DNA from: Cypionkella sp.
GTDB lineage: Bacteria; Pseudomonadota; Alphaproteobacteria; Rhodobacterales; Rhodobacteraceae
Assembly (NCBI GenBank): GCA_025458525.1
Contig: JALOSF010000001.1
Span: 45,963 to 109,962, forward strand
DNA length: 64,000 nt
Reading direction: 5' to 3'
A program made the translations under genes and the position numbers. A model generated the notes under the pieces. That model saw nothing but the letters and a program-made list of their open reading frames with translations, did not search any database and had not been told where the DNA came from. Positions 5,343-59,113 of the stretch are shown here, piece after piece. Numbering within the stretch: position 1 is the stretch's first letter; each line of letters begins with the position of its first letter.

Positions 5343-6743
5343 ATGGCGGCCTATTCGCTGCGCCGCCGCCTGCTGTTGTGGCTTTTCCTTGCGACGGCCG
5401 TGCTGGGCCTTCTGGCCCTGGCCGACACTTGGCGCGAGGCGTTGCGCACCGCCCAAGGCGTGTCGGACCGGGTTCTGGTCGGCTCCGCCCTTGCGATTGC
5501 CGAAAGCGTGACCGTGGATGAAACCGGCACGCTCGAGGTGGATATCCCCTATTCCTCGCTTGAAATGCTGACTTCGGCCGCGCAGGACAAGGTGTTTTAC
5601 CGCGTCGATGGGCAACCGGGCGGTTTTCTGACCGGCTATGCCGATCTGGACTATACCCAGCCCGAGGGGCAGGCCCCGGTGTTTTCCGACAGCACCTTCC
5701 GCGGCGTCGGCATCCGCAGCGCCACCTTGCGGCGCGAGGTGTCAACCGGCGCCAGTTCCATCGCCTTCACCGTCACGGTCGCGGAATCCACACTGGCACG
5801 CGCGGCACTGGCGCGGGCGATCCTGCTGCGATCGGCCCTGCGGCTGGCGGTTCTGATCTCTGGCGTCGCGGCCATTGTCTGGCTGGGCGTCACGCTGGCG
5901 CTGCGCCCGCTTGATCGGCTTGGTGCCGTCATCGCCGAACGCTCGCCCGATGACCTGCGCCCCGTGACCGCCGATGTGCCGCAAGAGGTGGCCGCGCTGG
6001 TGCTTGCCATCAACTCGTTCATGGCGCGATTGGACACGGCTGTGAATGCGCTGCGCAATTTCACCGGCAATGCCAGCCATCAGCTGCGCACCCCATTGGC
6101 CGTGGTGCGCACCCAGCTTGCGCTGATCGACCGCAGCACAACGCCACCGGCCCGGCAGGCCGCCATGGCCAAGGCGCAAATCGCGCTGGAACGGGCCGAA
6201 CGGGTTCTGGCGCAGCTTCTGGTGCTGGCGCGTGTGGATGCAGCCAGCGGGGCGGCCGCTCTCGGGCCTGTCAACATCGTTGCCACTGCCAAGGATCTGA
6301 CAGCCGAGATGGTGCCCTTTGCGCTGGAGCGTGACGTGGATCTTGGCTTCGAAGGCCCGGTCTGGGCCTTTGGTCATGCCGAGCCGGTATTGCTGGCCGA
6401 ACTGCTCAAGAACCTTGTCGGCAATGCCATCGCCTATGCCGGTCACGGCGCGGTGGTGACGGTGCGGGTAAAGGATCACCCCCAGGGCATCGAACTGGCG
6501 GTCGAGGACAACGGGCCGGGTCTGAGCCCAGCCCAGATCACCCTCGCGCTCCGGCGTCGTCGCGGCGCATCGATCCAGGCCCAGACCGCTGTTCGGGATC
6601 AGGAAGCGGGATATGGCTTTGGCCTTGCGATCAGCGCCGAAATCGCGGCGCTGTTCGATGCAGAGCTTCACCTTGCCCCGGGCGCGGGAGGGCGCGGGTT
6701 GCTGGCCAGCGTTGTGCTGCACCGGGCCCCTGCCGGCCCGTGA
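5343..6743 (+). CDS. tctE: Sensor histidine kinase, TctE family
   Basis: HAMP-like region, NASHQLRTPLAVVRTQ H-box, ELLKNLVGNAIAYAG N-box, EDNGPGLS. Confidence 0.88.
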   Translation: MAAYSLRRRLLLWLFLATAVLGLLALADTWREALRTAQGVSDRVLVGSALAIAESVTVDETGTLEVDIPYSSLEMLTSAAQDKVFYRVDGQPGGFLTGYADLDYTQPEGQAPVFSDSTFRGVGIRSATLRREVSTGASSIAFTVTVAESTLARAALARAILLRSALRLAVLISGVAAIVWLGVTLALRPLDRLGAVIAERSPDDLRPVTADVPQEVAALVLAINSFMARLDTAVNALRNFTGNASHQLRTPLAVVRTQLALIDRSTTPPARQAAMAKAQIALERAERVLAQLLVLARVDAASGAAALGPVNIVATAKDLTAEMVPFALERDVDLGFEGPVWAFGHAEPVLLAELLKNLVGNAIAYAGHGAVVTVRVKDHPQGIELAVEDNGPGLSPAQITLALRRRRGASIQAQTAVRDQEAGYGFGLAISAEIAALFDAELHLAPGAGGRGLLASVVLHRAPAGP

Positions 6744-6822
6744 CCCGTAAACGGCGCAGACATGCAAAAGGCGCGGAGGGTTGCCCCGCCGCGCCCCTGT
6801 GTCTGGCCCGAAGGTCAGGGAT

Positions 6823-7425
6823 TTACGCTTCTTCGGCGTTGTCGTCCGAACGCAGGCCCGAGGGCGACGCGATATTGGCGATCACGAAGTTGCGCTTGAT
6901 CGTCGGCACCACGCCTTCGGGCAGTTTCACGTCGTCGATGTGGATCACATCGCCGATGTTCTTGCCGGTCAGGTCAACCGTGATGTGATCGGGGATATCC
7001 CCTGCCGTCACTTCCAGTTCCACTTCGGGGCGCACCACAGTCAGCGTGCCGCCACGCTTCAGGCCGGGGGCCTTGTCGTGGTTTTCGAAGTTGACGTGAA
7101 TGAACAGATTGATGCGCGAGGTGCGACGCAGGCGCATCAGATCGACGTGGGTCGGAAGATCCTTGACCACATCGCGCTGCACACCGCGGCAGATGACGCG
7201 AACATCTTCCTGACCTTCAACCTTCAGGTTGAACAGCGTCGAAAGGAAACGGCCCTTCTTCAGCTTGGTCAGCAGGTAGTTGTATTTGATGTTGATCGGA
7301 AGCGGATCTGCGCCACCACCGTAAACAATACCGGGCACGAGTTGCTCACGACGAGCTTGACGGGCGGCCCCCTTGCCTGTCCCCATCCGTGCCTCGGCGA
7401 TCAGATCAGGGATCTCACCAGCCAT
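6823..7425 (-). CDS. rplY: 50S ribosomal protein L25/general stress protein Ctc
   Basis: [46 protein letters not shown]; long alphaproteobacterial form. Confidence 0.93.
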
Positions 7426-7497
7426 TGCAGTTCTCCATATGATAAGTCCACCGCCCTCCAAGGGTGCGCGGTGCGACCGGGGGGCTATAGCGGGGAA

Positions 7498-7950
7498 TCA
7501 GCGCGGGGGAAAGCGGAAATCGCGGCTTTCTTTGGCCCCCTTCGCCATGGCCTTTGCAAGATCGGCAATGGTGCGCGTGGCAAGATGGCGGCGCAGCACC
7601 GCCTCGGCCTCGGCCATTGCGGCGTGCAGGGTGGACTGCATCGCCGCCACGATGGCGCAGTCCTTTTCCGCGGCCAAGGGCTCTGCCGTCAGGAACGGCG
7701 CGCCGATGGCGTCATAAACCTCGGCCACCGTGATCTGATCCGCCGCCCGCGCCAGCCGCCATCCCCCCGCATGGCCCTTGCCCGACACCACCAGCCCCCG
7801 CACCCGCAAAAGCCCCAGCACCCGCCGCACGACGACCGGATTGGTCGCATTGTGCCCGGCAATCACTTCGGACGTGAACACCTGTTCGGGCGCTGCCGCC
7901 ATATGGCCCAGCGTGTGCAGCGCAAGGGAAAGCTTGTTGTTCCGTTTCAT
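7498..7950 (-). CDS. Rrf2 family transcriptional regulator
   Basis: KLSLALHTLGHMA...FTSEVIAGHNATNPVVVRRVLGLLRVRGLVVSGKGHAGGWRLAR...ITVAEVYDAIG. Confidence 0.85.
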   Translation of the reverse strand: MKRNNKLSLALHTLGHMAAAPEQVFTSEVIAGHNATNPVVVRRVLGLLRVRGLVVSGKGHAGGWRLARAADQITVAEVYDAIGAPFLTAEPLAAEKDCAIVAAMQSTLHAAMAEAEAVLRRHLATRTIADLAKAMAKGAKESRDFRFPPR

Positions 7951-7967
7951 GTAACTATTATAGTTAC
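7951..7967. promoter_or_regulatory. Perfect 17-bp palindrome GTAACTATTATAGTTAC, candidate operator for the adjacent Rrf2 regulator
   Basis: 8-bp arms around one central base, between divergent Rrf2 and oxidoreductase genes. Confidence 0.7.
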
Positions 7968-7995
7968 GTGATTCGTCAGACGCAAGGAAAAGCAG

Positions 7996-8892
7996 ATGGA
8001 AAACGACTGTGACGTGGCAATCGTGGGCGGCAGCTTTGCCGGGCTGGCCGCCGGGCTGATGCTGGCGCGGGGTCGGCGGCGGGTGGTGGTGTTCGACGAA
8101 GGCCAGACCCGCAACCGCTTTGCCGATGCGGGCCATGGCTTTCTGGGCATGGACGGGCTGGCCCCGGCAGAAATGCAGCGCCGCGGACAGGCCGATCTGC
8201 TGGCCTATCCCACCGCCCAGATCGTGCCGCAGCGCGTCACCTCTGTCACCGGAACGCAGGGCCGCTTTATCCTGACCGCCCGCGAAAGCTGGACCGCAAG
8301 ACAGGTGATCCTTGCGCATGGCATGCGTGACAACCTGCCCGATATTCCGGGCCTTGCCGAAGGCTGGGGCCAATGGGCCATGCAATGCCCCTATTGCCAC
8401 GGCTATGAGGCGGCAGACCAACCCACCGGCATCCTGATGACCGGCGCCGCCCCGCCACATCACCTGACGATGCTGCGCGACTGGACGGGCGATCTGGCCC
8501 TGTTCTGCAACGGATACGCCCCGGACGCAGACACGCGCGCCAAGGCAAACGCATGGGGTATTCCGGTCTATGATCCGCCCGTTGTGGCGATCCGCAACGA
8601 TGGCCCCCACCGCACCCTTCTGCTGGCGGATGGGCGCGAGGTGGCGCGCGCGGTGCTTTACCTCGTCTCTCGGTCAGAACCGTCCTGCGATCTGGCCGCA
8701 CAGCTTGGCTGCGCGATGGAGGATGGCCCGACCGGCCCCTTTGTCAGCGTCGACATGATGCAGCAAACCAGCGTTCCCGGCCTCTTTGCGGCGGGGGATC
8801 TGTGCCGCCCGATGTATGGCGCGCTGTTTGCCGCAGCCGATGGCGCCCGCGCCGGGGCGGGGGCGCATCACGCGCTGCTGTTTGCCGCCTGA
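7996..8892 (+). CDS. NAD(P)/FAD-dependent oxidoreductase, thioredoxin reductase-like
   Basis: DVAIVGGSFAGLAAGLMLARG Rossmann motif; CPYCHGYE; VPGLFAAGDLCRP. Confidence 0.85.
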   Translation: MENDCDVAIVGGSFAGLAAGLMLARGRRRVVVFDEGQTRNRFADAGHGFLGMDGLAPAEMQRRGQADLLAYPTAQIVPQRVTSVTGTQGRFILTARESWTARQVILAHGMRDNLPDIPGLAEGWGQWAMQCPYCHGYEAADQPTGILMTGAAPPHHLTMLRDWTGDLALFCNGYAPDADTRAKANAWGIPVYDPPVVAIRNDGPHRTLLLADGREVARAVLYLVSRSEPSCDLAAQLGCAMEDGPTGPFVSVDMMQQTSVPGLFAAGDLCRPMYGALFAAADGARAGAGAHHALLFAA

Positions 8893-8898
8893 CCGGGA

Positions 8899-9996
8899 TC
8901 AGCCAGAAAACAGGAAGTGCAGGACATCGCCATCCTTGACCTCATAGGTCTTGCCTTCAACCCGGAACTTGCCCGCTTCTTTCGCGCCCACCTCGCCCTT
9001 GCCGGCGATGTAATCGTCATAGGCAATGGTTTCGGCGCGGATGAAGCCCTTTTCGAAATCGCCGTGAATGACACCGGCCGCCTGCGGCGCCAGCGTGCCC
9101 TTCAGGATCGTCCAGGCGCGGGCCTCCTTTGGCCCCACGGTGAAATAGGTCTGAAGATCAAGCAGCTGATAGCCCGCGCGGATCAGCCGGTCGAGCCCGG
9201 CCTCGTGCAGGCCCATTTCCTCGAGAAACATGGCCGCCTCGTCCTGGGGCAACTGGCTGATCTCCTCCTCGATCCGGGCAGAAATCACCACCGTGCCCGC
9301 GCCTTGCGCGCGTGCCATCTCGGCCACGCGCTGCGATTGGCTGTTGCCCGACGCGGCCGAGGCTTCCTCGACGTTGCAGACGTAAAGCACGGGCTTGGAC
9401 GTGAGCAGTTGCAGCAAACGCCACGCGCGTTGGTCATCCTCGGCGACCTTGATCGTGCGGGCTGGCCTGCCCTCCTCCAGCACCTTTTGCGCCATCGCCA
9501 ACAGACGATCCTGATCGGCGGCTTCCTTGTCGCCGCCCTTCATCTTGCGGGCAAGATTGGCGCGCCGCCGCTCGATGCTTTCAAGGTCGGCCAGCATCAA
9601 CTCGGTTTCGATCGTCTCGGCATCGGCGACCGGGTCGATCCGGCCCTCGACATGGGTGATGTCGCCGTCTTCAAAGCACCGCAGCACATGGGCGATGGCG
9701 TCACATTCGCGGATATTGGCCAGAAACTGGTTGCCCAGACCCTCGCCCTTGGACGCCCCGCGCACAAGGCCGGCAATATCGACAAAGGTCATGCGGGTGG
9801 GGATGATCTGCTTGCTGCCGGCAATCGCGGCCAGCTTGTCCAGACGCGGATCAGGAACAGCGACCTCACCCACATTCGGCTCGATGGTGCAGAACGGAAA
9901 GTTCGCAGCCTGCGCCGCCGCTGTGCGGGTCAAGGCGTTGAACAGGGTCGATTTGCCCACGTTCGGCAAACCCACGATACCCATCTTGAAACCCAT
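8899..9996 (-). CDS. ychF: Redox-regulated ATPase YchF (Obg family)
   Basis: MGFKMGIVGLPNVGKSTLFNALT, FVDIAGLVRGASKGEGLGNQFL, C-terminal TGS-like domain. Confidence 0.96.
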   Translation of the reverse strand: MGFKMGIVGLPNVGKSTLFNALTRTAAAQAANFPFCTIEPNVGEVAVPDPRLDKLAAIAGSKQIIPTRMTFVDIAGLVRGASKGEGLGNQFLANIRECDAIAHVLRCFEDGDITHVEGRIDPVADAETIETELMLADLESIERRRANLARKMKGGDKEAADQDRLLAMAQKVLEEGRPARTIKVAEDDQRAWRLLQLLTSKPVLYVCNVEEASAASGNSQSQRVAEMARAQGAGTVVISARIEEEISQLPQDEAAMFLEEMGLHEAGLDRLIRAGYQLLDLQTYFTVGPKEARAWTILKGTLAPQAAGVIHGDFEKGFIRAETIAYDDYIAGKGEVGAKEAGKFRVEGKTYEVKDGDVLHFLFSG

Positions 9997-45359: not shown

Positions 45360-46198
45360 CCCAGTATTACGCCCCCCAAGGCGGCCTGCCGCCGCAAACC
45401 AGCCTGATGACCCAGCGTGCGGTGTTCACCGACGCCTATGCCTTCATTCCCAAGGGCTGCTTTTCCGACATCGTGACCAGCGCCCTGCCCGGCTGGGACG
45501 GCACAAGGCTGTGGATGATCGCCCGCCCGATGAGCGGCTTTTCCGAAACCTTCAGCCAATATGTGATGGAGGTCGCCCCCGGTGGCGGATCGGACGCGCC
45601 TGATGCCGAAGACGGGGCCGAGCACTGGCTGTTCTTCACCGAAGGACAGGCGACGCTGGTGCTTGGCGGCACGGCCCATGCGATGGTTGCAGGCAGCTAT
45701 GCCTTCATCCCGGCCGGCAGTCATTGGACGCTGCGCGCGACCGGGGCGGCGCCCGCCCGCTTTCACTGGCTGCGCAAACTTTACGAACCAGCACCCGGGG
45801 TCGCTTCGCCCGAACCGATCATCACCCATGACCGGGACGTGCCCCTGTCGCTGATGCCGGACACCAATGGCGTCTGGGGCACCACGCGCTTTGCCGACCC
45901 GAGTGACCTGCGCCATGACGCCCATGTGAACATCGTGACGCTTCAGCCCGGCGGCACCATTCCCTTTGAGGAAACCCATGTGATGGAACACGGGCTGTAC
46001 GTGTTGCAGGGCAAGGCGGTTTACAAGCTCAACCGCGACTGGGTCGAGGTGGAGGCTGGCGATTTCATGTGGCTGCGCGCCTATTGCCCACAGGCCTGCT
46101 ATGCTGCGGGGCCCGGCCCGTTCCGCTATCTGCTCTACAAGGACGTGAACCGCCACGCAAAGCTGCGCGGTCCCGGCGGGTTTGGCGCGCTGCGCTAA
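45356..46198 (+). CDS. (S)-ureidoglycine aminohydrolase-like bicupin protein
   Basis: Bicupin; MTQYYAPQGGLPPQTSLMTQRAVFTDAYAFIPKG; CTLQPGGTIPFEETHVMEHGLYVLQGKA-like region. Confidence 0.88.
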   Translation: MTQYYAPQGGLPPQTSLMTQRAVFTDAYAFIPKGCFSDIVTSALPGWDGTRLWMIARPMSGFSETFSQYVMEVAPGGGSDAPDAEDGAEHWLFFTEGQATLVLGGTAHAMVAGSYAFIPAGSHWTLRATGAAPARFHWLRKLYEPAPGVASPEPIITHDRDVPLSLMPDTNGVWGTTRFADPSDLRHDAHVNIVTLQPGGTIPFEETHVMEHGLYVLQGKAVYKLNRDWVEVEAGDFMWLRAYCPQACYAAGPGPFRYLLYKDVNRHAKLRGPGGFGALR

Positions 46199-49896: not shown

Positions 49897-50084
49897 GTTG
49901 GCTCCTCCAGCCAGCAGCCTAGCGCAGTCCCGCTGTGCCGCAATACGCCAAAAGTCGCCCGGGCGCACAGAGCAGCGCCCTGTCACCCTCGCGGCTGCGA
50001 CGCACAGAACATGCTGTAATTTTTTTCTGACAGGTTTATGCTGACACTGACGCGCGACAAATTAAATCGGAATGGCGCGGCGCG

Positions 50085-50230
50085 ATTGCGGAACCATTGC
50101 GAAAGCGCCAAGTCTTTTAATATCAATGGGTTAGGGTGGTTTCATTTCGAAATAATTGGTTACACTTTCGCAAAAGCTAACCTATTGATTTCATTGGGAT
50201 GGACCGCGATTGCGAAAGGTATTGCGAAAG
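50085..50230. repeat. Iterated ATTGCGAAAG-type motifs near left element end (candidate transposase-binding or operator sites)
   Basis: ATTGCGGAA 50085-50093; ATTGCGAAAG 50096-50105, 50209-50218 and 50221-50230; reverse-complement copy CTTTCGCAAA 50165-50174. Confidence 0.7.
50153..50165 (+). repeat. Left copy of 13-bp terminal motif TAATTGGTTACAC
   Basis: Exact match to 59077-59089; partial copy TAATTGGTAAC at 59057-59067. Confidence 0.75.
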
Positions 50231-50233
50231 CAA

Positions 50234-50677
50234 CTATTCGCTGTCTGGGGCGAACTCTGCATAGGCCAAGAGGTGAGCGGCTGTTGCTGCCGTCATGGCT
50301 TCATCGTCTGCCATTCGGTCAACTATATCCCGCTTTGCGGTTGCCACTGCCTTAAGCAGTTCACCCATGACCTTTGGCGCGTCCCGAAGGAAGTCACTGT
50401 AAGCCGGGAACAGAGGCCCACGGCCATGTGTCAGACGCAACAAGGCTAACTTGAAGGCTTCTGTTTCTTCCGGTGACCATTGGGCAATCGGGAAGCCTGC
50501 GAAGCTGTTATCGTCCCCCGGCTTCCTGAGAAGATATCGCACTGGAACAGACCCGCGAATCCGCCAAGAAGCGATGGTGCTTCGTCCAATCTGCAAGGCC
50601 TTTGCAAGCTCTGCGTCAGTTTCAGCGCCATGGATGCGCTTTAGGTTTGTGATCCGATCTTCAATGTCATCCGACAT
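50234..50677 (-). CDS. Phage CI-like repressor (HTH N-terminus)
   Basis: MSDDIEDRITNLKRIHGAETDAELAKALQIGRSTIASWRIRGSVPVRYLL; divergent from the transposase operon. Confidence 0.75.
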   Translation of the reverse strand: MSDDIEDRITNLKRIHGAETDAELAKALQIGRSTIASWRIRGSVPVRYLLRKPGDDNSFAGFPIAQWSPEETEAFKLALLRLTHGRGPLFPAYSDFLRDAPKVMGELLKAVATAKRDIVDRMADDEAMTAATAAHLLAYAEFAPDSE

Positions 50678-50695
50678 GTGGACTACCCCACAAAC

Positions 50696-50733
50696 AATGT
50701 TGCATTTGGCTTTGTGTTCGCATAATGTTGCAT
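50696..50733. promoter_or_regulatory. Two direct AATGTTGCAT motifs, candidate operators between repressor and Ner-like gene
   Basis: AATGTTGCAT at 50696-50705 and 50724-50733, 28 bp apart. Confidence 0.6.
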
Positions 50734-50763
50734 AAGGCAACACACGCAAGGGCGCGCTGCATC

Positions 50764-50961
50764 ATGCATACACCTTCACCCGACCTGTTGAAAGAGGTTC
50801 GCGCTAAGCTGGTCTTGCGCGGCACATCCTTTAGCGCCTTTTGCAAGGCCCATGGCTTTGTGCGGCAGGCTGTGACTGTGGCACTTTCGGGTGAAAGAAG
50901 CGGCCTTCGTGCGCGGGCTTTGGCTGAACGCTTTCTTGCAAAGGTCAGAGAAGCAGAATGA
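50764..50961 (+). CDS. Ner-like small HTH DNA-binding protein
   Basis: MHTPSPDLLKEVRAKLVLRGTSFSAFCKAHGFVRQAVTVALSGERSGLRARALAERFLAKV; position directly before transposase. Confidence 0.65.
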   Translation: MHTPSPDLLKEVRAKLVLRGTSFSAFCKAHGFVRQAVTVALSGERSGLRARALAERFLAKVREAE

Positions 50962-52967
50962 CACCTGTTTCCGCAGATACCTTTGCCAAAGCCTGTGGGA
51001 TCACTCCACAGGCCGCGCGACTTGCCTTCCGCAACGCGGCCCTTGGCAAGCCGTGGCGGGGACAGGTTCTGCCGGTGGTGGCTCTTCCCGGCAACCGTGG
51101 CGGCAAGGCGGGCACCGTCTGGGGGTTGGCGCTGGATCATTGCCCACCGGCCTTGCGTGACCGTTTAGACGCCCTTTTGCCGGTCATTCAAAGCCCCGTT
51201 CAAACGCTGGTTAAAGGCCATGTTGAAGACTGGCAATTTGAGGAACAGAAGGCCCGTCTTCGGATCATCCAGCCCATTCTTGAGGCCCCGAGGGGCACGG
51301 CGGAACGGGCGGAGCGGTTCCGCACTGTTGCGGCAACCTTGCAGGCCATACGGTCGCAAATCGTCCGGGTTCCAGAAAGCACGTTGCGCGATTGGGTCAA
51401 TGCGTTTGAAGAAAGCGGCCTTCTCGGGCTATTGCCGGAACAGCGCGGCGACCGGGGGCAATCGCGGGTCATAATCACGCGGGAATGGGATGCGGCGATT
51501 GACCTGCCCGAAAAGGTCTGCCGAGGTATCGCCGCCGATCTGGCGACCTATGCCCGAAGCCTGATCGCCAATGACGGCACGTCGATCCGCGAGACCTTGG
51601 AACTGGCAAGCAAGCGCCTGTGCCGCCTGTCTCTTGAGGCGGGAACGAAGCTTTTGGTTCGGGATTTGCAGCCGGTTTGCGGCCTGAATACAAAGTGGGC
51701 CGCGCGGCATGATCTGGACAGTTACCTTCTGATTTATTGGAAGAAGAAGGACAACAAGAGGCTGCAAGACAAGGTTGTGCCACGCGTCCGGCGCGGCCTG
51801 CACCCTGTCCCGATGGGTCTGCTGATCGGCGACGTTCACTATGTTGATATTCTGGTGGAAGAGGCCGGGGAACCTGTCCGCGTTCGCCTGATCGCATGGC
51901 TTGATGCGTCCAGCATGTTCGTTTGGGTGACGCCTGTCTTCCTGTCGAAGGGCAAGGGCATCCGTCAGGAAGACGTGGCGGAATCGCTTGCACAGGTGAC
52001 CCTATGCCCGCATGGGGGCATCCCGCAAGAATACTACCTCGATAACGGGGGCGAATATTCGGCGTTGGCAGGGGCTATGCAGCGTCTTGCCGTCCTTGCT
52101 GATCATGACTTCAAGGTGACCCTTGCGAAGCCCTACAGCCCGACTTCAAAGGGCGCGATTGAAGGCCTTTTCAACATCTTGGAAGGCATTTTCAAGGGCT
52201 TGCCGGGGTGGATTGGCGGCGACCGGACCAACAAGAAGACCGTCAACAAAGGGCAGGTTGTGGAGCCATACCGCAAAGGCCTTGTTGCACTGGAAGCGGA
52301 CATAAACGCCCTTGTTTCCTATTACAATTCCCGTCCGCAAGGGGCTGCAACCCGCCTTGCAGGGCTATCGCCGAAAGCCATGCTGGAAGCCAAGATCAAA
52401 GCCACGGGCTTCGTTGCGCGCGTTCCAGACGAAGCGTCCTTTGACCTGATATTCAGCCGGTCCGAAGTTCGCACCGTCCGGCAAGGCTGCATAACCGTTG
52501 ATGGGCGGCAATATCATGGCGCTTGTCTGGACGGCCTGTTGCCGGGTGACCCTGTGGAAGTGTTCCTGCCGTTGCGCAAGGATCGCGGCTTTGTCTTCGT
52601 CCGCACATCGAACAGTGAGGCACCTGTCCGGCTTGATATGCTTCCGATGTTCGCAGATGGGGACCGCAACGGCGCAAGGCTGCAAGGTCAGCTTGAAGCC
52701 GGGGTCAACCGGGCAATCCGTGACCTGTCACGCGACATTGATCCGAACCTGTCCACCTTTGAAGCCCGCAAGGCTGCGGCGGACATGACGCCGCCCATGG
52801 CACCTTCGCCTGATATCTGGACACGGGCCATCGACAAGACCAACCGGCCCATATCGGAAACCGACCTTGAAGAACAGGAAGACGCCCGCAAGCGGCGGCT
52901 TCTGGACGACCTGTTTCCCCGTTCGGGGGACCAGACAAGCCGAGAGGCCAGCGACGGCAATCGCTGA
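50958..52967 (+). CDS. Mu-like DDE transposase (MuA family)
   Basis: 669 aa; DDE residues in GDVHYVDI...YYLDNGGEYS...SPTSKGAIEGLFN; C-terminal MuA beta-barrel-like region; ATGA overlap with preceding ORF. Confidence 0.93.
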   Translation: MTPVSADTFAKACGITPQAARLAFRNAALGKPWRGQVLPVVALPGNRGGKAGTVWGLALDHCPPALRDRLDALLPVIQSPVQTLVKGHVEDWQFEEQKARLRIIQPILEAPRGTAERAERFRTVAATLQAIRSQIVRVPESTLRDWVNAFEESGLLGLLPEQRGDRGQSRVIITREWDAAIDLPEKVCRGIAADLATYARSLIANDGTSIRETLELASKRLCRLSLEAGTKLLVRDLQPVCGLNTKWAARHDLDSYLLIYWKKKDNKRLQDKVVPRVRRGLHPVPMGLLIGDVHYVDILVEEAGEPVRVRLIAWLDASSMFVWVTPVFLSKGKGIRQEDVAESLAQVTLCPHGGIPQEYYLDNGGEYSALAGAMQRLAVLADHDFKVTLAKPYSPTSKGAIEGLFNILEGIFKGLPGWIGGDRTNKKTVNKGQVVEPYRKGLVALEADINALVSYYNSRPQGAATRLAGLSPKAMLEAKIKATGFVARVPDEASFDLIFSRSEVRTVRQGCITVDGRQYHGACLDGLLPGDPVEVFLPLRKDRGFVFVRTSNSEAPVRLDMLPMFADGDRNGARLQGQLEAGVNRAIRDLSRDIDPNLSTFEARKAAADMTPPMAPSPDIWTRAIDKTNRPISETDLEEQEDARKRRLLDDLFPRSGDQTSREASDGNR

Positions 52968-53003
52968 CCCCTCTTTATGCAACCCATGATCGGAGAAGAT
53001 CAC

Positions 53004-53786
53004 ATGTTAGATATGCACTTGGATAGGGTTACCATTGAAACCCGCGCCCATTCAATCCTTAAGGAAGTCGCGGGGCAAGTCATTGCGACGGCGGGCCTTG
53101 GCATCATCCGGGGGCCTGTGGGGATTGGCAAAAGCTTCGCGCTGGAGACAATCCGGCGCGACCTTGAGGCAAACGGGGACCGCGTGTTGTTCCTGACCTC
53201 TTCGCCCGAAGTGGAAGGGTCAATCGGTTCCTTCGCCCGCGCCATGCTTGCGCCTTACGGCATCAGCGGCGGTGTCGCCAGTTCCGCCGTTGAGTCCCTT
53301 GCTGATCTGGTGTTGTCCGGGTCACCGTTCCGGGGCTTTGGTGAGCGTGTTCTTGTGATCATCGACGAAGGGCAAGGCCTCAAGACGAACATTCTGGAAA
53401 TGCTGCGCGGCCTTTGGGATCGCGGCGACGCCGCGCGCCTTGGCGACACCTTCGCCCCCGCCTTCGGGCTGTTGCTTGTCGGGAATGACTCCTTCTTTAA
53501 CAAAGGGGGCCGGACCAAGAAGGCAGAGTTCCGCCCGCTTATGTCGCGCGTGACGCATGATCTGGAATTGCCCCGGCCTGATCGGGCCGAATATGCCGAC
53601 CTTGCCCGTTGCCTGTTGCCTGAGGCCGAAGAACTGCGCCCGATGCTGGAAGCCTTCGGCCATGAAAGCGGCAACTTGCGGGCGGTGGCGAAAGCCCACC
53701 GACAGGCCGTCGCCTTGGCGGGGAACAGCCCTGTGACGGCTGAACACCTGCGGCGCGCCATTATGTTCTGTGGGGGGCGCAAATGA
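53004..53786 (+). CDS. MuB-like AAA+ ATPase, transposition target activator
   Basis: Walker A RGPVGIGKSFAL, Walker B VLVIIDEGQGLK; directly after transposase; GGAG upstream of ATG 53004. Confidence 0.9.
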   Translation: MLDMHLDRVTIETRAHSILKEVAGQVIATAGLGIIRGPVGIGKSFALETIRRDLEANGDRVLFLTSSPEVEGSIGSFARAMLAPYGISGGVASSAVESLADLVLSGSPFRGFGERVLVIIDEGQGLKTNILEMLRGLWDRGDAARLGDTFAPAFGLLLVGNDSFFNKGGRTKKAEFRPLMSRVTHDLELPRPDRAEYADLARCLLPEAEELRPMLEAFGHESGNLRAVAKAHRQAVALAGNSPVTAEHLRRAIMFCGGRK

Positions 53787-54133
53787 TGGACCGTCAAGAC
53801 GTGCTGATCCGGCTGACCATGACCAAAGAGGAAGCCGAAATGTTCCGGGGCCGATGGGCCATGATTGTTCCGCTTTCGGCGGATGAAGCGGACGAGTTGC
53901 GGGCCATCTTCAACGCGACCCACGACACCTTGCGCAAGATCGCGCAAGCCTTGTCCACCTTGGGCGTTGTGCTGGAAACGCGTGGTTCGGATGAACCCGA
54001 TGTTCGCAAGGTGCTGGATGCGTGGCTGAACCCGACCCGGCAGAACGAAGCCCTTATGGGTCGCGCGCGCGAACTGTTGGGCCGTGCAAAGTTTGTGGGT
54101 GGCATGGAAGATGGGGAGGGGCACGTTCAATGA
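53783..54133 (+). CDS. Hypothetical protein, early region of Mu-like element
   Basis: ATGA overlap with upstream and downstream ORFs; no recognised family. Confidence 0.7.
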   Translation: MMDRQDVLIRLTMTKEEAEMFRGRWAMIVPLSADEADELRAIFNATHDTLRKIAQALSTLGVVLETRGSDEPDVRKVLDAWLNPTRQNEALMGRARELLGRAKFVGGMEDGEGHVQ

Positions 54134-54510
54134 CGCAAGCTGATCAAGAAGACTACCGCGTCAAGAATGCGCGTGAAGGCAAGGCAATCTACATACCGGG
54201 CAAATCTGTCGAAGAAATGAAGGTGATACTCGCCGCCGAGAAAGCTGAGAAGGATGCAAAGGTGCCGCCCCTCAAGCTGACGGCCGAGGAAGCGGCGACC
54301 TATGCCGATGCGATTGACCTAGTGTGCGTGCGGTTAAAACAGGCCGAACATACGTTTGCCCTTTTGGCACGGATTCAGCAGGACGGTGAATATGAAGGGC
54401 ACTACGGCCTTCCCGCCATAGCAAACTGTGCAGCCGCCGCACTTCACGCGCTTGGTGAAGCTGAACTTGACACCCTGAACAAACTCTCAATCCGGCTTAT
54501 GGCCGGATAA
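54130..54510 (+). CDS. Hypothetical protein, early region of Mu-like element
   Basis: MTQADQEDYRVKNAREGKAIYIPGKSVEEMKVILAAEKAEKD; ATGA-coupled; no recognised family. Confidence 0.7.
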   Translation: MTQADQEDYRVKNAREGKAIYIPGKSVEEMKVILAAEKAEKDAKVPPLKLTAEEAATYADAIDLVCVRLKQAEHTFALLARIQQDGEYEGHYGLPAIANCAAAALHALGEAELDTLNKLSIRLMAG

Positions 54511-54524
54511 CAACGGAGGCACTT

Positions 54525-54935
54525 ATGACGATTTCCCCGCGTCAAATCAGCCTAATAAAACTGGCTGTTCGGCAATTGAAAATCCCGGATGATGTTTACC
54601 GGACGGCGCTTGCACAATTCGGCGTCACGTCCTGCACCGAGTTCGACACCGAAGGCTTTAACGCCTTCATGGCATGGCTTGAGCGTGTCGGATTCCGCCC
54701 GATGGAAAAGAAGGGGCAGGACTATGGCGAACGCCCCGGCATGGCATCGCTTGCCCAGTTGGAACTGATCCGGAACCTTTGGAACGAAGTGACCAACCAT
54801 CACTATCAGACCGAAGACCAGTTGAACGCATGGCTACTGCGGACCTTCAAGGTATCGTCCTTGCGCTTCGTGACAAAGCCGCTGGCACAGAAGATCATTA
54901 CGGCACTGCGGGCGATGAAGACCCGCGCGGCCTGA
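54525..54935 (+). CDS. gemA: GemA / Mu gp16-like regulatory protein
   Basis: ISPRQISLIKLAVRQLKIPDDVYRTALAQFGVTSCTEFD...MASLAQLELIRNLWNEV. Confidence 0.9.
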   Translation: MTISPRQISLIKLAVRQLKIPDDVYRTALAQFGVTSCTEFDTEGFNAFMAWLERVGFRPMEKKGQDYGERPGMASLAQLELIRNLWNEVTNHHYQTEDQLNAWLLRTFKVSSLRFVTKPLAQKIITALRAMKTRAA

Positions 54936-54962
54936 CCCATGCCAACGGATGACGGGGGCGGG

Positions 54963-54989
54963 CCGAAGGTTCCGCCCCTTCGGTTTTTT
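54963..54989 (+). terminator. Intrinsic terminator closing the early module
   Basis: CCGAAGGttccgccCCTTCGG followed by TTTTTT. Confidence 0.85.
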
Positions 54990-55165
54990 AGGACTTCATC
55001 AGAGGCCCGGAAACAGCGCTGTAAGCCCCCTTCGGGCCACCATTCCCCGCGCCAACCCGTTACCCCGTTTAAAAACGCCGGAAACCCGTTTAATTTTGCA
55101 AGCGCGGGGCATGGATAGGGGCGCACTTGACGCAATCGGGCGAAAGGGCGCATATTCAGGGGGTC

Positions 55166-55239
55166 GCGCGGTGTATCCCGATGGGCAAGGGAGCGCGCTG
55201 AAAGGCGGGCTGATGTTGGTTCGAGTCCAACCCCGCGCG
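55166..55239 (+). tRNA. tRNA-like / degenerate tRNA inside the element
   Basis: Acceptor GCGCGGT/CCCGCGC (6 of 7 pairs), D-stem TCCC/GGGA, anticodon stem GCGCG/CGGGC (4 of 5) with 8-nt loop CTGAAAGG, perfect T-arm GTTGG-TTCGAGT-CCAAC; no encoded CCA. Confidence 0.5.
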
Positions 55240-55351
55240 GCGTCTCTGCCTTCCCCAAGTGCCCCTCGTTCCCCGAGCTTCACCTGAAAAACTGACCCGG
55301 TTTCATCCTGGGAAACCTGCAAACCAAACCGCCCGAAAGACAACCTGGACA

Positions 55352-55666
55352 ATGACCCCAACCCGCGACCTTGCCACACTTTGGGATGACGACTTGCGCG
55401 CCGTTTTGCTGTCGGATGGGTCTGCCCAACCGGTGCAGTTCTTTGCAGGTCAGCACCATGTCGCGGCTTGGCAGGCTATGGGCTATGATGTTCGGGCGGC
55501 TGCAATCCGCGCGGCGGCGTTCGTCGAAAGCCCCAATGACCCGGAAGACTACATTGCCCAAGAAGTCGCGATTGCGCTAGGATCAGGCATCGCCACGGAT
55601 GACACATATCTATGGCGGATCGAACGCTTCCCGCGCCACATGCTTGGCGGTCCGTTCATCGCCTGA
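55352..55666 (+). CDS. Hypothetical protein
   Basis: MTPTRDLATLWDDDLRAVLLSDGSAQPVQFFAGQHHVAAWQAMGYDVRAAAIRAA; open, no recognised family. Confidence 0.55.
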   Translation: MTPTRDLATLWDDDLRAVLLSDGSAQPVQFFAGQHHVAAWQAMGYDVRAAAIRAAAFVESPNDPEDYIAQEVAIALGSGIATDDTYLWRIERFPRHMLGGPFIA

Positions 55667-55779
55667 CCTGCCCGAAAATCTCCCCTCACGGGTGTGCGGA
55701 TAATATCGCTTTCCCGGATCAGTTACACCTTTTCCCAGCAGCCTGCATCGCGCGGGCGATGGGACAAAGGGACATCCGA

Positions 55780-56670
55780 ATGTTGCTCAACGCACAAAAC
55801 CTTGACCTTGTTTTCTCGGGCTTGAAAACGGTCTTCAACGACGCCTTCACCGCCGCGCCATCCAAGTGGGCAGAAGTCGCAATGACCGTCCAGTCTTCAA
55901 GCGCGGACGAGCAATACACTTGGTTGGGCGAGTTCCCCCAGATGCGCGAATGGATCGGGCCGCGCCATGTGAAGAACCTGTCGGCGCACGGCTTCAAGAT
56001 CGTGAACCGCAAGTTTGAAAGCACCATCTCAATCAAGCGCGAGCATATCGAAGATGACCGTATCGGCATCTTCAAGCCCGCCCTCACCGAAATGGGCCGC
56101 GCGTCGGCGCAACACCCCGACGAACTTGTCTTCGGCCTTCTGTCGCAAGGCTTCAACACGACCTGTTATGACGGGCAGAACTTCTTTGACACGGAGCACC
56201 CGGTCAAGGATGCGAACGGTCAGGACGTGCTTGTCAGCAACATGCAAGATGGGGCCGGTCCGGCTTGGTATCTGATGGACACGACGCGCGGCGTGAAGCC
56301 GATGGTCTGGCAGACCCGGACGCCTTATGAGTTCACCGCCCTGACCCGCAGCGAAGACGAAAACGTGTTTCGCAATGACGAATACCTTTATGGGGTGCGC
56401 GCGCGGGCCAATGCAGGCTTTGGCCTGTGGCAACTGGCCTTTGGTTCTCGCGCTGAACTGACCCCGCAAAACTACGCCGCCGCCCGGTCTGCGATGATGC
56501 GCTTCACCGCTGACGGCGGCAACAAACTTGGCATCATGCCTTCCCTCTTGGTTGTGCCGCCGGAACTGGAAAGCGCGGCCTTGGCGTTGCTGAACACCGA
56601 ACTGGGGGCAAACGGCGAGTCCAACATATGGAAGGGCACGGCGAAAATCGCCTTGACGCCTTACCTGTAA
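55780..56670 (+). CDS. Mu gpT-like major capsid protein
   Basis: MLLNAQNLDLVFSGLKTVFNDAFTAAPSKWAEVAMTVQSSSADEQYTWLGEFPQMREWIGPRHVKNLSAHGFKIVNRKFESTISIKREHIEDD typical of Mu gpT; AAGG RBS. Confidence 0.93.
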   Translation: MLLNAQNLDLVFSGLKTVFNDAFTAAPSKWAEVAMTVQSSSADEQYTWLGEFPQMREWIGPRHVKNLSAHGFKIVNRKFESTISIKREHIEDDRIGIFKPALTEMGRASAQHPDELVFGLLSQGFNTTCYDGQNFFDTEHPVKDANGQDVLVSNMQDGAGPAWYLMDTTRGVKPMVWQTRTPYEFTALTRSEDENVFRNDEYLYGVRARANAGFGLWQLAFGSRAELTPQNYAAARSAMMRFTADGGNKLGIMPSLLVVPPELESAALALLNTELGANGESNIWKGTAKIALTPYL

Positions 56671-56679
56671 GGCGCGCCC

Positions 56680-57657
56680 ATGTCCGGCCTGATCCTTGCC
56701 CAATGTGACAAAGCCTTGCCGCCCGGTGGCGGTGCGCCCGAATGGGTGCACCTGCTTCCTGTCGGAGCTGTCGAAGGTCGCGACGGTCGCGCCTATTCCT
56801 TGCCTGACCCGGCAGGGCTGATCCTCGACTTCCAAGAGCGTGGCCTTGATCTGGTGATCGACTATGAACATCAGTCGGATATTCCAGAGGCCAAGCTGAA
56901 AGGCCCGGTTCGGGCGGCAGGCTGGATCAAGGAACTTGCCCACAATCCAAGCGGCCTTTGGGGCCGCGTCGAATGGACCGCGACGGCGCGCGAGATGATC
57001 GAGCGCAAGGAATACCGCTTCCTGTCGCCAAGCTTTTACCACAACAAAAGCGGCCAGATCATGCGCCTGAAAGGCGCGGGCTTGGTGCATGAACCGAACT
57101 TGCGGCTGCAAGCCCTTAACAGTCAGGAAAGCACGATGCTTGACCCAAAGACCAAGCGCGCAACGCCCCCAAACCCGAATCCCGAAACCTCACTTCGGTC
57201 GCCGCTGATCGCGCGGCTTATGAAGGTCTTGAACCTCTCGCCCGATGCGACCGAAGAAGAGGCGCTAGACGCCCTTGAGGCATGGCTTGCGGACAAGGCA
57301 ACCAAGCCCGACCCGAAGAAGTTTGTGCCGCTGGAAGCCGTGCAACAGATGCTGCAAGAGCAGCATTTGCAACGGTCCGTCATGGCCGAAGCGCAGGCCG
57401 TGGAAAAGGTCAATGCGGCCATTCGCAAGGGCTACTTTCCGCCCGCTCTGCGCGATTGGGCCATTGCCCTCTGCCGTGACGATTCCGCAAGCTTTGACGC
57501 CTTCCTATCCAAATCCGCCCCAGCCTATGCGCACATGGGGCAAGAGATCGTGACTGGCCTGCCGCCGGGGCTGTCGCGCGCAACCATCCAGACCGACGCC
57601 GAAGCCGCTATCTGTCACCAGTTGGGCTTGAAGCCGGAGCAACTCGCCAAAGGCTGA
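56680..57657 (+). CDS. Mu gpI-like prohead protease / scaffold protein
   Basis: WVHLLPVGAVEGRDGRAYSLPDPAGLILDFQERGLDLVIDYEHQSDIPEAKLKGPVRAAGWIKEL...YRFLSPSFYHN. Confidence 0.88.
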   Translation: MSGLILAQCDKALPPGGGAPEWVHLLPVGAVEGRDGRAYSLPDPAGLILDFQERGLDLVIDYEHQSDIPEAKLKGPVRAAGWIKELAHNPSGLWGRVEWTATAREMIERKEYRFLSPSFYHNKSGQIMRLKGAGLVHEPNLRLQALNSQESTMLDPKTKRATPPNPNPETSLRSPLIARLMKVLNLSPDATEEEALDALEAWLADKATKPDPKKFVPLEAVQQMLQEQHLQRSVMAEAQAVEKVNAAIRKGYFPPALRDWAIALCRDDSASFDAFLSKSAPAYAHMGQEIVTGLPPGLSRATIQTDAEAAICHQLGLKPEQLAKG

Positions 57658-57660
57658 CAC

Positions 57661-57919
57661 CGAATTGCCCTCTGTCTCACAAGCGCAGGGGGCAAAGGCC
57701 GGACCATTCGCAGACCGCGCCCATCCGTCCAATGGGTGAAGGAAGGCAAAGGTCCGGCCCACCAGATTGCCGCGCCTGTCCAAAGGCTGGGGGCGGCAGT
57801 GCAAGCCGGAAGGGAAAACCGGCCATAGGTGGCCCCCGTGAAGCCCGCGTTTTGGCTGGCGCGTGTGGATGGGGGCCAACTCGCAATTCCCCTTCACCCC
57901 AAGAAGGACACCTTCCCCG
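57661..57919 (+). other. Structured noncoding gap (candidate leader RNA or cis site)
   Basis: GGCCGGACC 57697-57705 / GGTCCGGCC 57751-57759; GGGGGC 57789-57794 / GCCCCC 57832-57837 enclosing GCCGG/CCGGC; alternative partner GGGGGCC 57871-57877. Confidence 0.45.
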
Positions 57920-58279
57920 ATGACCGAACGCCGAACCCTTCCCGCCCGCCCTATGCCAAAGCCCACAGCACAGGTTGAGGCATATGTTGACGCTATGGGG
58001 CCGGAACTCGCCGTCACCTTCCTGCTTGCCTTTGGCGGGGCGGAAATGGCGGTTCCCGATAGCCCGAACGGGCGTTCCGCCCACGAAGCCCTGATCGGAC
58101 CCGAAGCCGCCGCGCGCCTGTCCGCCGTCAAGGACCGGCTTCAACGCCGCGTCCCCTTGGCAAAGGCTTGGCTTGCCGCCATGCTTCATTGGCAGGGCCA
58201 TTCCACCGCCCATATCGCCCGCACCTTGCGGGTGTCGGATACGTCGGTTCGCAACATGCTGAAGGACAGAAGGGGATGA
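57920..58279 (+). CDS. HTH protein, possibly Mor/C-like late activator
   Basis: Mid-protein ELAVTFLLAFGGAEMAVPDSPNGRS, C-terminal HSTAHIARTLRVSDTSVRNMLKDRRG helix-turn-helix. Confidence 0.6.
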   Translation: MTERRTLPARPMPKPTAQVEAYVDAMGPELAVTFLLAFGGAEMAVPDSPNGRSAHEALIGPEAAARLSAVKDRLQRRVPLAKAWLAAMLHWQGHSTAHIARTLRVSDTSVRNMLKDRRG

Positions 58280-58440
58280 GTGGTCTTGCCGTTGTGATCG
58301 GGCTTTCCTTCCTTGCCGGGTTCGGCTTTGCCTTGGGTGTTGCCGCTTGGGAAGTCGTGATCCTTGCCGGGTGCAAGGGCCGTCACATCGCCCTGACCCT
58401 CGCCCGCGTCAGCGAATGCCAGAGGACCGAAGCGCCATGA
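58276..58440 (+). CDS. Small single-TM membrane protein
   Basis: MSGLAVVIGLSFLAGFGFALGVAAWEVVIL; ATGA overlap with upstream ORF. Confidence 0.6.
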   Translation: MSGLAVVIGLSFLAGFGFALGVAAWEVVILAGCKGRHIALTLARVSECQRTEAP

Positions 58441-58625
58441 CGGACCTCTTTGATCGCGCCCGCACCCTGATCAATGAAGCCGCTTCGCACCCTGACCCCG
58501 AAGCCGCGATGGAAGCCCTTGAGGCAGAGGCCATACCCCAAGACCGGCACATGTTCCCGTTGCTTTGGGAGGGTCTGACCCTCGCCTTGAACGGCGCACC
58601 GCCCGAAGAGGCCGATGCCCCATGA
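58437..58625 (+). CDS. Small hypothetical protein
   Basis: MTDLFDRARTLINEAASHPDPEAAMEALEAEAIPQDRHMFPLLWEGL; ATGA-coupled both sides. Confidence 0.6.
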   Translation: MTDLFDRARTLINEAASHPDPEAAMEALEAEAIPQDRHMFPLLWEGLTLALNGAPPEEADAP

Positions 58626-58999
58626 CAGACCAGCCCGGAACCGCCCTCGCCGTCCTCGCCCAAATCCGCGCACAAGCCCGCGCCGGGGCCGACGCGCTGG
58701 ACGGTCTGAACCGGGCCGTTGAAGCCCTCGAAGGCATCATTCAAGAGGGGCTTGAAGGGCCGTTTAACGGGGTCTTCAATGCGCTACCAAACGCTGCCAT
58801 TCGCACCCACCAGCGCGGCAAGATCGAACAAGACCCCGAGTTGCAGGCCTTCATCCGCGCCCGCTGCCTGACCCTGACCTTCCCCGAAGTCGCCGCCCAA
58901 GTCGCTGCCAACTTCCCCCCGGAACGCCGCGTCACCACGTCCAGCATCCACCGCTGGTGGCACCGAAGGGGCAAGAAGTCGCTTCCCTCAATCGGATAA
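58622..58999 (+). CDS. Hypothetical protein with C-terminal HTH-like region
   Basis: ELQAFIRARCLTLTFPEVAAQVAANFPPERRVTTSSIHRWWHRRGKKS; last ORF of element. Confidence 0.6.
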   Translation: MTDQPGTALAVLAQIRAQARAGADALDGLNRAVEALEGIIQEGLEGPFNGVFNALPNAAIRTHQRGKIEQDPELQAFIRARCLTLTFPEVAAQVAANFPPERRVTTSSIHRWWHRRGKKSLPSIG

Positions 59000-59076
59000 T
59001 ATCGGCTTTAGCCAGACGTTCCCGGAAATAGCGCCGGGATACCGGCCATTCCGGTTTAATTGGTAACGTTATGATT

Positions 59077-59089
59077 TAATTGGTTACAC
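59077..59089 (+). repeat. Right copy of 13-bp terminal motif TAATTGGTTACAC
   Basis: Exact match to 50153-50165. Confidence 0.75.
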
Positions 59090-59113
59090 AACAACACCAC
59101 CGCAGGAGGTGCC

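Follow-up and report, generated by a model that had tools for sequence, protein, structure and literature searches.

The Cypionkella sp. contig JALOSF010000001.1 (assembly GCA_025458525.1) carries, within the 64,000-nucleotide stretch analyzed here (positions 45,963 to 109,962 of the forward strand; hereafter the window), a 9,046-bp Mu-like transposable element belonging to a family that is mobile and widespread in Rhodobacteraceae. We consider this element probably to be a Mu-type phage satellite, which would move by transposition, form a small shell of its own and obtain the other parts of its virion from a Mu-like helper phage; its encapsidation and its use of a helper are inferred. It occupies positions 50048 to 59093 on the plus strand and has TG...CA ends, its termini being matched to those of 12 relatives. 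The left terminus TGACGCGCGACAAATTAAATC and the right terminus TGTTGTGTAACCAATTAAATC align in register with ACAC on both outer sides. A preliminary description of this DNA had placed the borders at 50015 and 59088; the size of about 9 kb was right, but the left end moves to 50048 and the right end to 59093. A left end at about 50015-50020 (TGTAATTTTTT) was rejected because congeners have bases 50015-50047 in their empty sites as well, which marks this segment as host DNA.

The ends were set by alignment of the termini across relatives and then confirmed through empty sites. An unbiased 30-bp terminal-similarity search gave no ends for several window-type elements, because their termini have only short MuA sites in common. 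A query made of the joined flanks gave a contiguous match over the junction, i.e. an empty site, in genomes of the same genus, and was split in the window genome with an overlap of exactly 4 bp; three congener empty sites were aligned base by base. Insertion involves the whole element at once, bounded by its TG/CA ends, and duplicates 4 bp of the target. The window genome comes from a fragmented metagenome-type assembly (197 contigs, 87% complete), but the chance that the element is an assembly artefact or sits on a chimeric contig is negligible, given the perfect 4-bp duplication, the continuous flanks, the empty sites of congeners and the presence of close relatives in the strain-named assemblies Pseudotabrizicola algicola ETT8, Anianabacter salinae ASV31 and Phycocomes zhengii LMIT002.

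The genes named in the preliminary description (CI-like repressor, Ner, MuA, MuB, GemA, gpT and a Mu I-like protease) are all present and open according to Pfam and PHROG. The gpI-like protein is complete, its match to phrog_328 spanning residues 6-324 of 325. Most of the small open reading frames (ORFs) listed there as unknown are indeed without a known family, but one of them is a Mor-like activator. The repeated 4-bp ATGA overlaps were also recovered (at ner/MuA, MuB/o5 and o5/o6, plus four within 57920-58625). Pfam and PHROG scans of the element gave no portal, large terminase (TerL), gpF, tape measure, tail fibre, small terminase or endolysin. A second set of profiles, covering portal, TerL, F, tape measure, J, endolysin and small terminase among other genes, came from twelve full-length Mu-like phages, most of them with Rhodobacteraceae hosts. 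Run against 13 delimited elements of the family, they detected no portal, TerL, F, tape-measure protein, J, lysis or small terminase gene, the sole match being a neck-type gene in 2 of the 13. Both kinds of scan uphold the earlier statement that portal, terminase, tail and lysis genes are missing, with no portal, TerL or tail gene among the unclassified ORFs.

Elements matching this one in content and size occur in many genera. At least 16 gene-complete elements (the window element, L015, L016, L017, L028, L075-L079, L082, L083, L085, L088, L090 and L102; L088 has an insertion inside MuA) share the same gene set and order, and there are many partial ones. The order, mapped by running various satellite and phage proteins as tblastn queries, is repressor, ner, MuA, MuB, (o6), gemA, (mor), gpT, (decoration), gpI, (mor), (neck), o58622, where parentheses mark genes that not every element has. 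The 13 delimited elements measure 7.95-9.6 kb, and the 12 that have target duplications have a mean length of 8,456 bp (standard deviation 515, range 7,951-9,585). Two transposase sublineages, window-type and L034-type, share this one architecture, with a target duplication of 4 bp in 6/6 window-type and of 5 bp in 6/7 L034-type elements.

The profile of o58622, the right-end helix-turn-helix (HTH) protein that is the hallmark of the family, matched 32 of 397 Rhodobacteraceae genomes (~8%; each genus represented by one genome), with up to 10 copies in a single genome. In a class-level sample reaching beyond the family (367 genomes) it matched the window genome itself only, and none of the roughly 363 Alphaproteobacteria from outside the family; among viral contigs it matched just five, of 4.5-9.2 kb; viral-contig scans with MuA and MuB gave no matches. 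Close relatives in a genome-wide scan reside in P. algicola ETT8 (84%), an Amaricoccus metagenome-assembled genome (MAG), A. salinae ASV31, a Rhodobacter MAG and P. zhengii LMIT002. Relatives of the window MuA in other Rhodobacteraceae genomes have 35-43% identity. Genome G389 holds four closely related copies, with nearly identical capsids where these are intact, which points to recent movement. The viral contigs L034 and L037 end precisely at the right terminus of the element, as would be expected if the DNA past the terminus varies. In genome G066 we observed up to ten family copies, mostly decayed (L094-L097, L104 and L105), which suggests past bursts of transposition.

The Mu-like gene content and the existence of degraded family members (L018, L021, L023, L089 and L094-L099) would also fit a defective prophage, derived by one or several internal deletions from a Mu-like phage of ~35-40 kb. 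We give this explanation very little credence, as the architecture is identical across genera and its T-I order is opposite to that of all full-length phages seen. T precedes I in all gene-complete elements, whereas I precedes T in all nine full-length phages of Rhodobacteraceae for which I and T could both be placed, and also in Mu, RS1, RhkS_P1 and MuM16-2; no full-length relative with the satellite gene order was found among the phages examined. Moreover, neither o58622 nor a tblastn match to the window MuA is present in 50,697 phage records. The deletion hypothesis also fits poorly with the intact ends and target duplications, and with the capsid phylogeny and purifying selection described below. 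The preliminary description's proposal of a streamlined element, in preference to an internally deleted prophage, is strongly supported; its proposals that the element makes small heads and takes packaging and tails from a helper have circumstantial support.

A maximum-likelihood tree was computed for 44 gpT proteins, 24 of them satellite capsids. In it, a single clade (support 100/99) holds 22 of the 24 and no full-length phage capsid, setting them apart from the capsids of co-resident phages. The remaining two (L076 and L077) lie in a second clade near phage RhkS_P1. The tree fits one old satellite lineage and one later capsid exchange, and not the repeated decay of local prophages. Comparison of the window and P. 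algicola elements gave ratios of non-synonymous to synonymous substitution (dN/dS) of 0.06-0.28 across all nine genes tested (0.20 for gpT, 0.28 for gpI and 0.09 for o58622). MuA, MuB, GemA, the capsid, the protease/scaffold and the right-end HTH protein are kept by selection across many genera. Identity between the same two elements ranges from 97% for MuB to 64% for gpT and 33% for the repressor, indicating that modules are swapped as they are in phages.

We propose the following scheme for a Mu-type satellite. The CI/Ner switch would keep the element silent until induction, after which MuA and MuB would carry out replicative transposition, the ends being paired via a central gyrase site, and the Mor-like activator would switch on gpT and gpI. 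These two proteins would assemble a small shell, of about T=3, with a capacity of ~11 kb (by volume scaling, 39 kb x (3/7)^1.5 = 10.9 kb, assuming a T=7 helper head), which would suit an element of 8-9.6 kb plus 1-3 kb of host DNA. Such a load of element and 1-3 kb of host DNA would be Mu-like: the headful packaging of Mu takes in 50-150 bp of host DNA at the left end and as much as 2-3 kb at the right (PMC5977238). A co-infecting or co-resident Mu-like phage would supply the portal, large terminase, tail and lysis proteins. The best candidate for an adaptor steering the helper terminase to satellite DNA is o58622, predicted to consist of a long N-terminal helix and a C-terminal HTH (AlphaFold2 model, pLDDT 72), and for which we propose a DNA-binding or small-terminase-like role.

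The genomes suggest a link to Mu-like phages. The Mu-type portal (PF06074) is present in 9/32 element-bearing genomes vs. 40/365 others (odds ratio 3.2, Fisher p=0.0097), always at a distance from the element. In genome G385, a neck gene of the satellite (L076, 1735-2089) and that of the co-resident phage (L120, 11967-12321) are 80% identical in DNA along 357 bp, much more than the two sequences are elsewhere; this segment is a recent satellite-phage exchange. Together, portal enrichment and gene sharing favour Mu-like phages as the helpers. In another genome, G296, a stretch of about 100 bp is 80% identical between the mor-o58622 gap of the satellite (L086, reverse complement, 1400-1560) and the F-neck gap of the co-resident phage (L124, 8900-9060). 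The Mu-like prophage of G389 (L119, 6146-10075) has insertion sequences at the expected position of gpT; this genome has several satellite gpT copies, and some of its satellites carry the same insertion sequences as the prophage.

Gene transfer agents are common in Rhodobacterales, and 23 of the 32 element-bearing genomes are without a Mu-type portal, as might be expected if a host gene transfer agent or another type of phage packaged the element and its own shell were merely incidental. We judge this to be very unlikely: the Mu-type portal is enriched in carriers, the recombination and shared sites involve Mu-like phages, and the usual capacity of a gene transfer agent is taken to be only ~4 kb.

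Several observations weigh against a helper-dependent satellite. A capsid without a portal is unusual among described capsid-encoding satellites. The window genome (87% complete) has no Mu-type portal, so that no helper is identified there, and the portal enrichment is modest and could mirror a shared susceptibility to Mu-like phages. A Foldseek search with the o58622 model returned nothing significant, a small terminase appearing merely at rank 4. Lastly, L029 (3990-5485) and L081 (14408-16291) have a tape measure in place of gpT and gpI, both of which are absent, so the shell is not universal in the family.

An element without its own portal or motor might also be a transposon, self-carried or carried otherwise, whose gpT and gpI interfere with incoming Mu-like phages by poisoning or diverting their assembly, with no DNA packaged. 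The structural proteins of several satellites and of the capsid-less tape-measure variant could act as dominant negatives in this way. We regard such interference as unlikely, however. The retained protease/scaffold and Mor, and often neck and decoration proteins, suggest that assembly is productive, the lengths vary so little that a packaging limit seems probable, and some vehicle is needed for horizontal transfer across dozens of genera.

Some elements that have the same ends or the hallmark gene carry a different shell module. One is L034, a complete 9.04-kb element with gpT and a 680-residue tape-measure protein (6660-8699) and without gpI. The shell-module variants indicate that the family characteristically swaps virion genes that determine size; sisters with capsid and tape measure, or tape measure only, would extend size control to tail length. 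Whether these elements form a new class of satellite, combining Mu-type replicative transposition with an exchangeable virion module and a particle size set by their own shell on the helper's portal, is in our judgment an even question.

Most elements have a direct repeat, CCGTTTAA...GTTTAA, between gemA and gpT, with a spacing of 11 or 20-22 bp, located at 0.52-0.62 of the element length where the ends are known. In several full-length phages of the same hosts, the portal gene or the F-I gap contains a repeat of similar form but inverted orientation, which lies at 0.48-0.50 of the genome in the cases that could be measured. In Mu, where the gyrase cut site is annotated between G and I, ATTTTTAAACCGGTATTTAACGG lies immediately to the right of the cut, and GGTATTTAACGG is common to Mu and L015, L037 and L075. 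The Mu gyrase site near the genome centre is required for efficient replicative transposition (PMC10052514), and we read the central repeat, from its sequence, as a putative gyrase site. A packaging site was rejected as the first choice because the repeat is central in satellites and full phages alike and resembles the gyrase-adjacent sequence of Mu. The satellite repeat best matches that of the co-resident phage (of 12) in 4/5 testable cases; in the fifth, L077, it is closer to the repeats of other phages than to that of the phage in its own genome. This matching could result from the host gyrase, from recombination with the helper or from a phage factor.

The element resembles Mu-like phages (Mu, Rhodovulum phage RS1 and Rhodovulum phage vB_RhkS_P1) in its repressor/Ner, MuA, MuB, GemA, Mor, gpT and gpI genes, its TG...CA ends, its short target duplication and its central gyrase-site-like repeat. 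Unlike them, it is smaller than 10 kb (vs. ~37-40 kb), has T before I, is without portal, terminases, gpF, tail and lysis genes, and has a MuA too divergent for a tblastn match to any phage record. With capsid-forming phage-inducible chromosomal islands (cfPICI) it shares satellite size, a capsid protein and maturation protease encoded by the element itself, and a presumed need for helper tails. However, cfPICI have a site-specific integrase and encode a complete head, portal and terminases included, depending on the helper for tails only, whereas the element has DDE transposition; lacking portal, terminase and integrase, it falls outside the cfPICI definition. P4-like satellites, PICI/SaPI, PLE and PICMI are small helper-dependent elements, as this element is proposed to be, and several of them build small capsids from helper proteins; capsid redirection is described for SaPI and PLE in abstracts. 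These satellites use or remodel the helper capsid, whereas the element brings its own shell protein and scaffold/protease, and we know of none described with MuA/MuB transposition. A gene transfer agent differs in having a full head-portal-terminase-tail cluster, and the element differs from it in having its own mobility.

As a conserved small element without a full set of virion genes, it has the general trait of a phage satellite. To our knowledge, described satellites integrate site-specifically and either remodel the helper capsid or bring an entire head. Full-text searches, mostly of freely readable journals, gave no description of a Mu-type or transposable satellite, and a 2024 review of satellite families names cfPICI among them and no such element (PMC11389934). 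The family appears to be undescribed. If the satellite reading is true, a family that transposes like Mu and brings a shell alone would bridge capsid-remodelling and whole-head satellites, satellites would parasitise transposable phages too, and there would be a natural test of building a foreign shell on a helper's portal. It would also explain many small 'incomplete Mu prophages' of Rhodobacteraceae that annotation discards.

Table 1. Features of the Cypionkella sp. element (positions in the window)
Feature	Position	Strand	Evidence or remark
Left target-site duplication copy (ACAC)	50044..50047		4 bp; empty sites in congeners
Left terminus, MuA-site-like TGACGCGCGACAAATTAAATCGGAATGG	50048..50075	+	In-register match to right terminus TGTTGTGTAACCAATTAAATC
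CI-like repressor	50234..50749	-	PF07022 E=1.1e-5
Ner-like HTH protein	50725..50961	+	phrog_925 E=3.7e-7; conserved in relatives
MuA-type DDE transposase	50958..52967	+	phrog_310 E=7e-34; alignment with relatives
MuB-type ATPase	52977..53786	+	PF13401 E=9e-10; phrog_296 E=3e-20
o5, early ORF without known function	53783..54133	+	Kept in some relatives; dN/dS 0.13 vs. L028
o6, early ORF without known function	54130..54510	+	Kept in many relatives; dN/dS 0.16
GemA	54525..54935	+	PF06252 E=1.7e-20
Central direct repeat CCCCGTTTAA...CCCGTTTAATTTTGC	55063..55096		Resembles right arm of Mu strong gyrase site
tRNA-like sequence between gemA and gpT	55165..55241	+	ARAGORN; anticodon ambiguous
ORF o8	55352..55666	+	No known family (Pfam, PHROG)
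gpT major capsid protein, full length	55780..56670	+	PF10124 E=3.6e-127, 288/289 profile positions
Mu gpI-like head maturation protease, C-terminal scaffold part	56680..57657	+	PF10123 E=1.1e-61
Small ORF	57732..57923	+	No known family
Mor-like late transcription activator	57920..58279	+	phrog_836 E=1.4e-17
Small hydrophobic ORF	58276..58440	+	No known family
Small ORF	58437..58625	+	No known family
o58622, right-end HTH protein, family hallmark	58622..58999	+	Family alignments, AlphaFold2 model
Right terminus, two MuA-site-like repeats (ACCAATTAAA)	59036..59093	-	
Right target-site duplication copy (ACAC)	59094..59097		4 bp

The tRNA-like sequence between gemA and gpT had no match in an Rfam search. 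A tRNA-like sequence occurs at the same place in two relatives (L036, 1054-1144, and L088, 13031-13122), and it could be the remnant of a phage tRNA or a structured leader.

Between mor and o58622, the P. algicola element (L028, 16913-18231) has two adjoining paralogous ORFs of no known family, and the same slot of the window element is occupied by two small ORFs unrelated to these paralogues. This slot is likely to be a cargo site.

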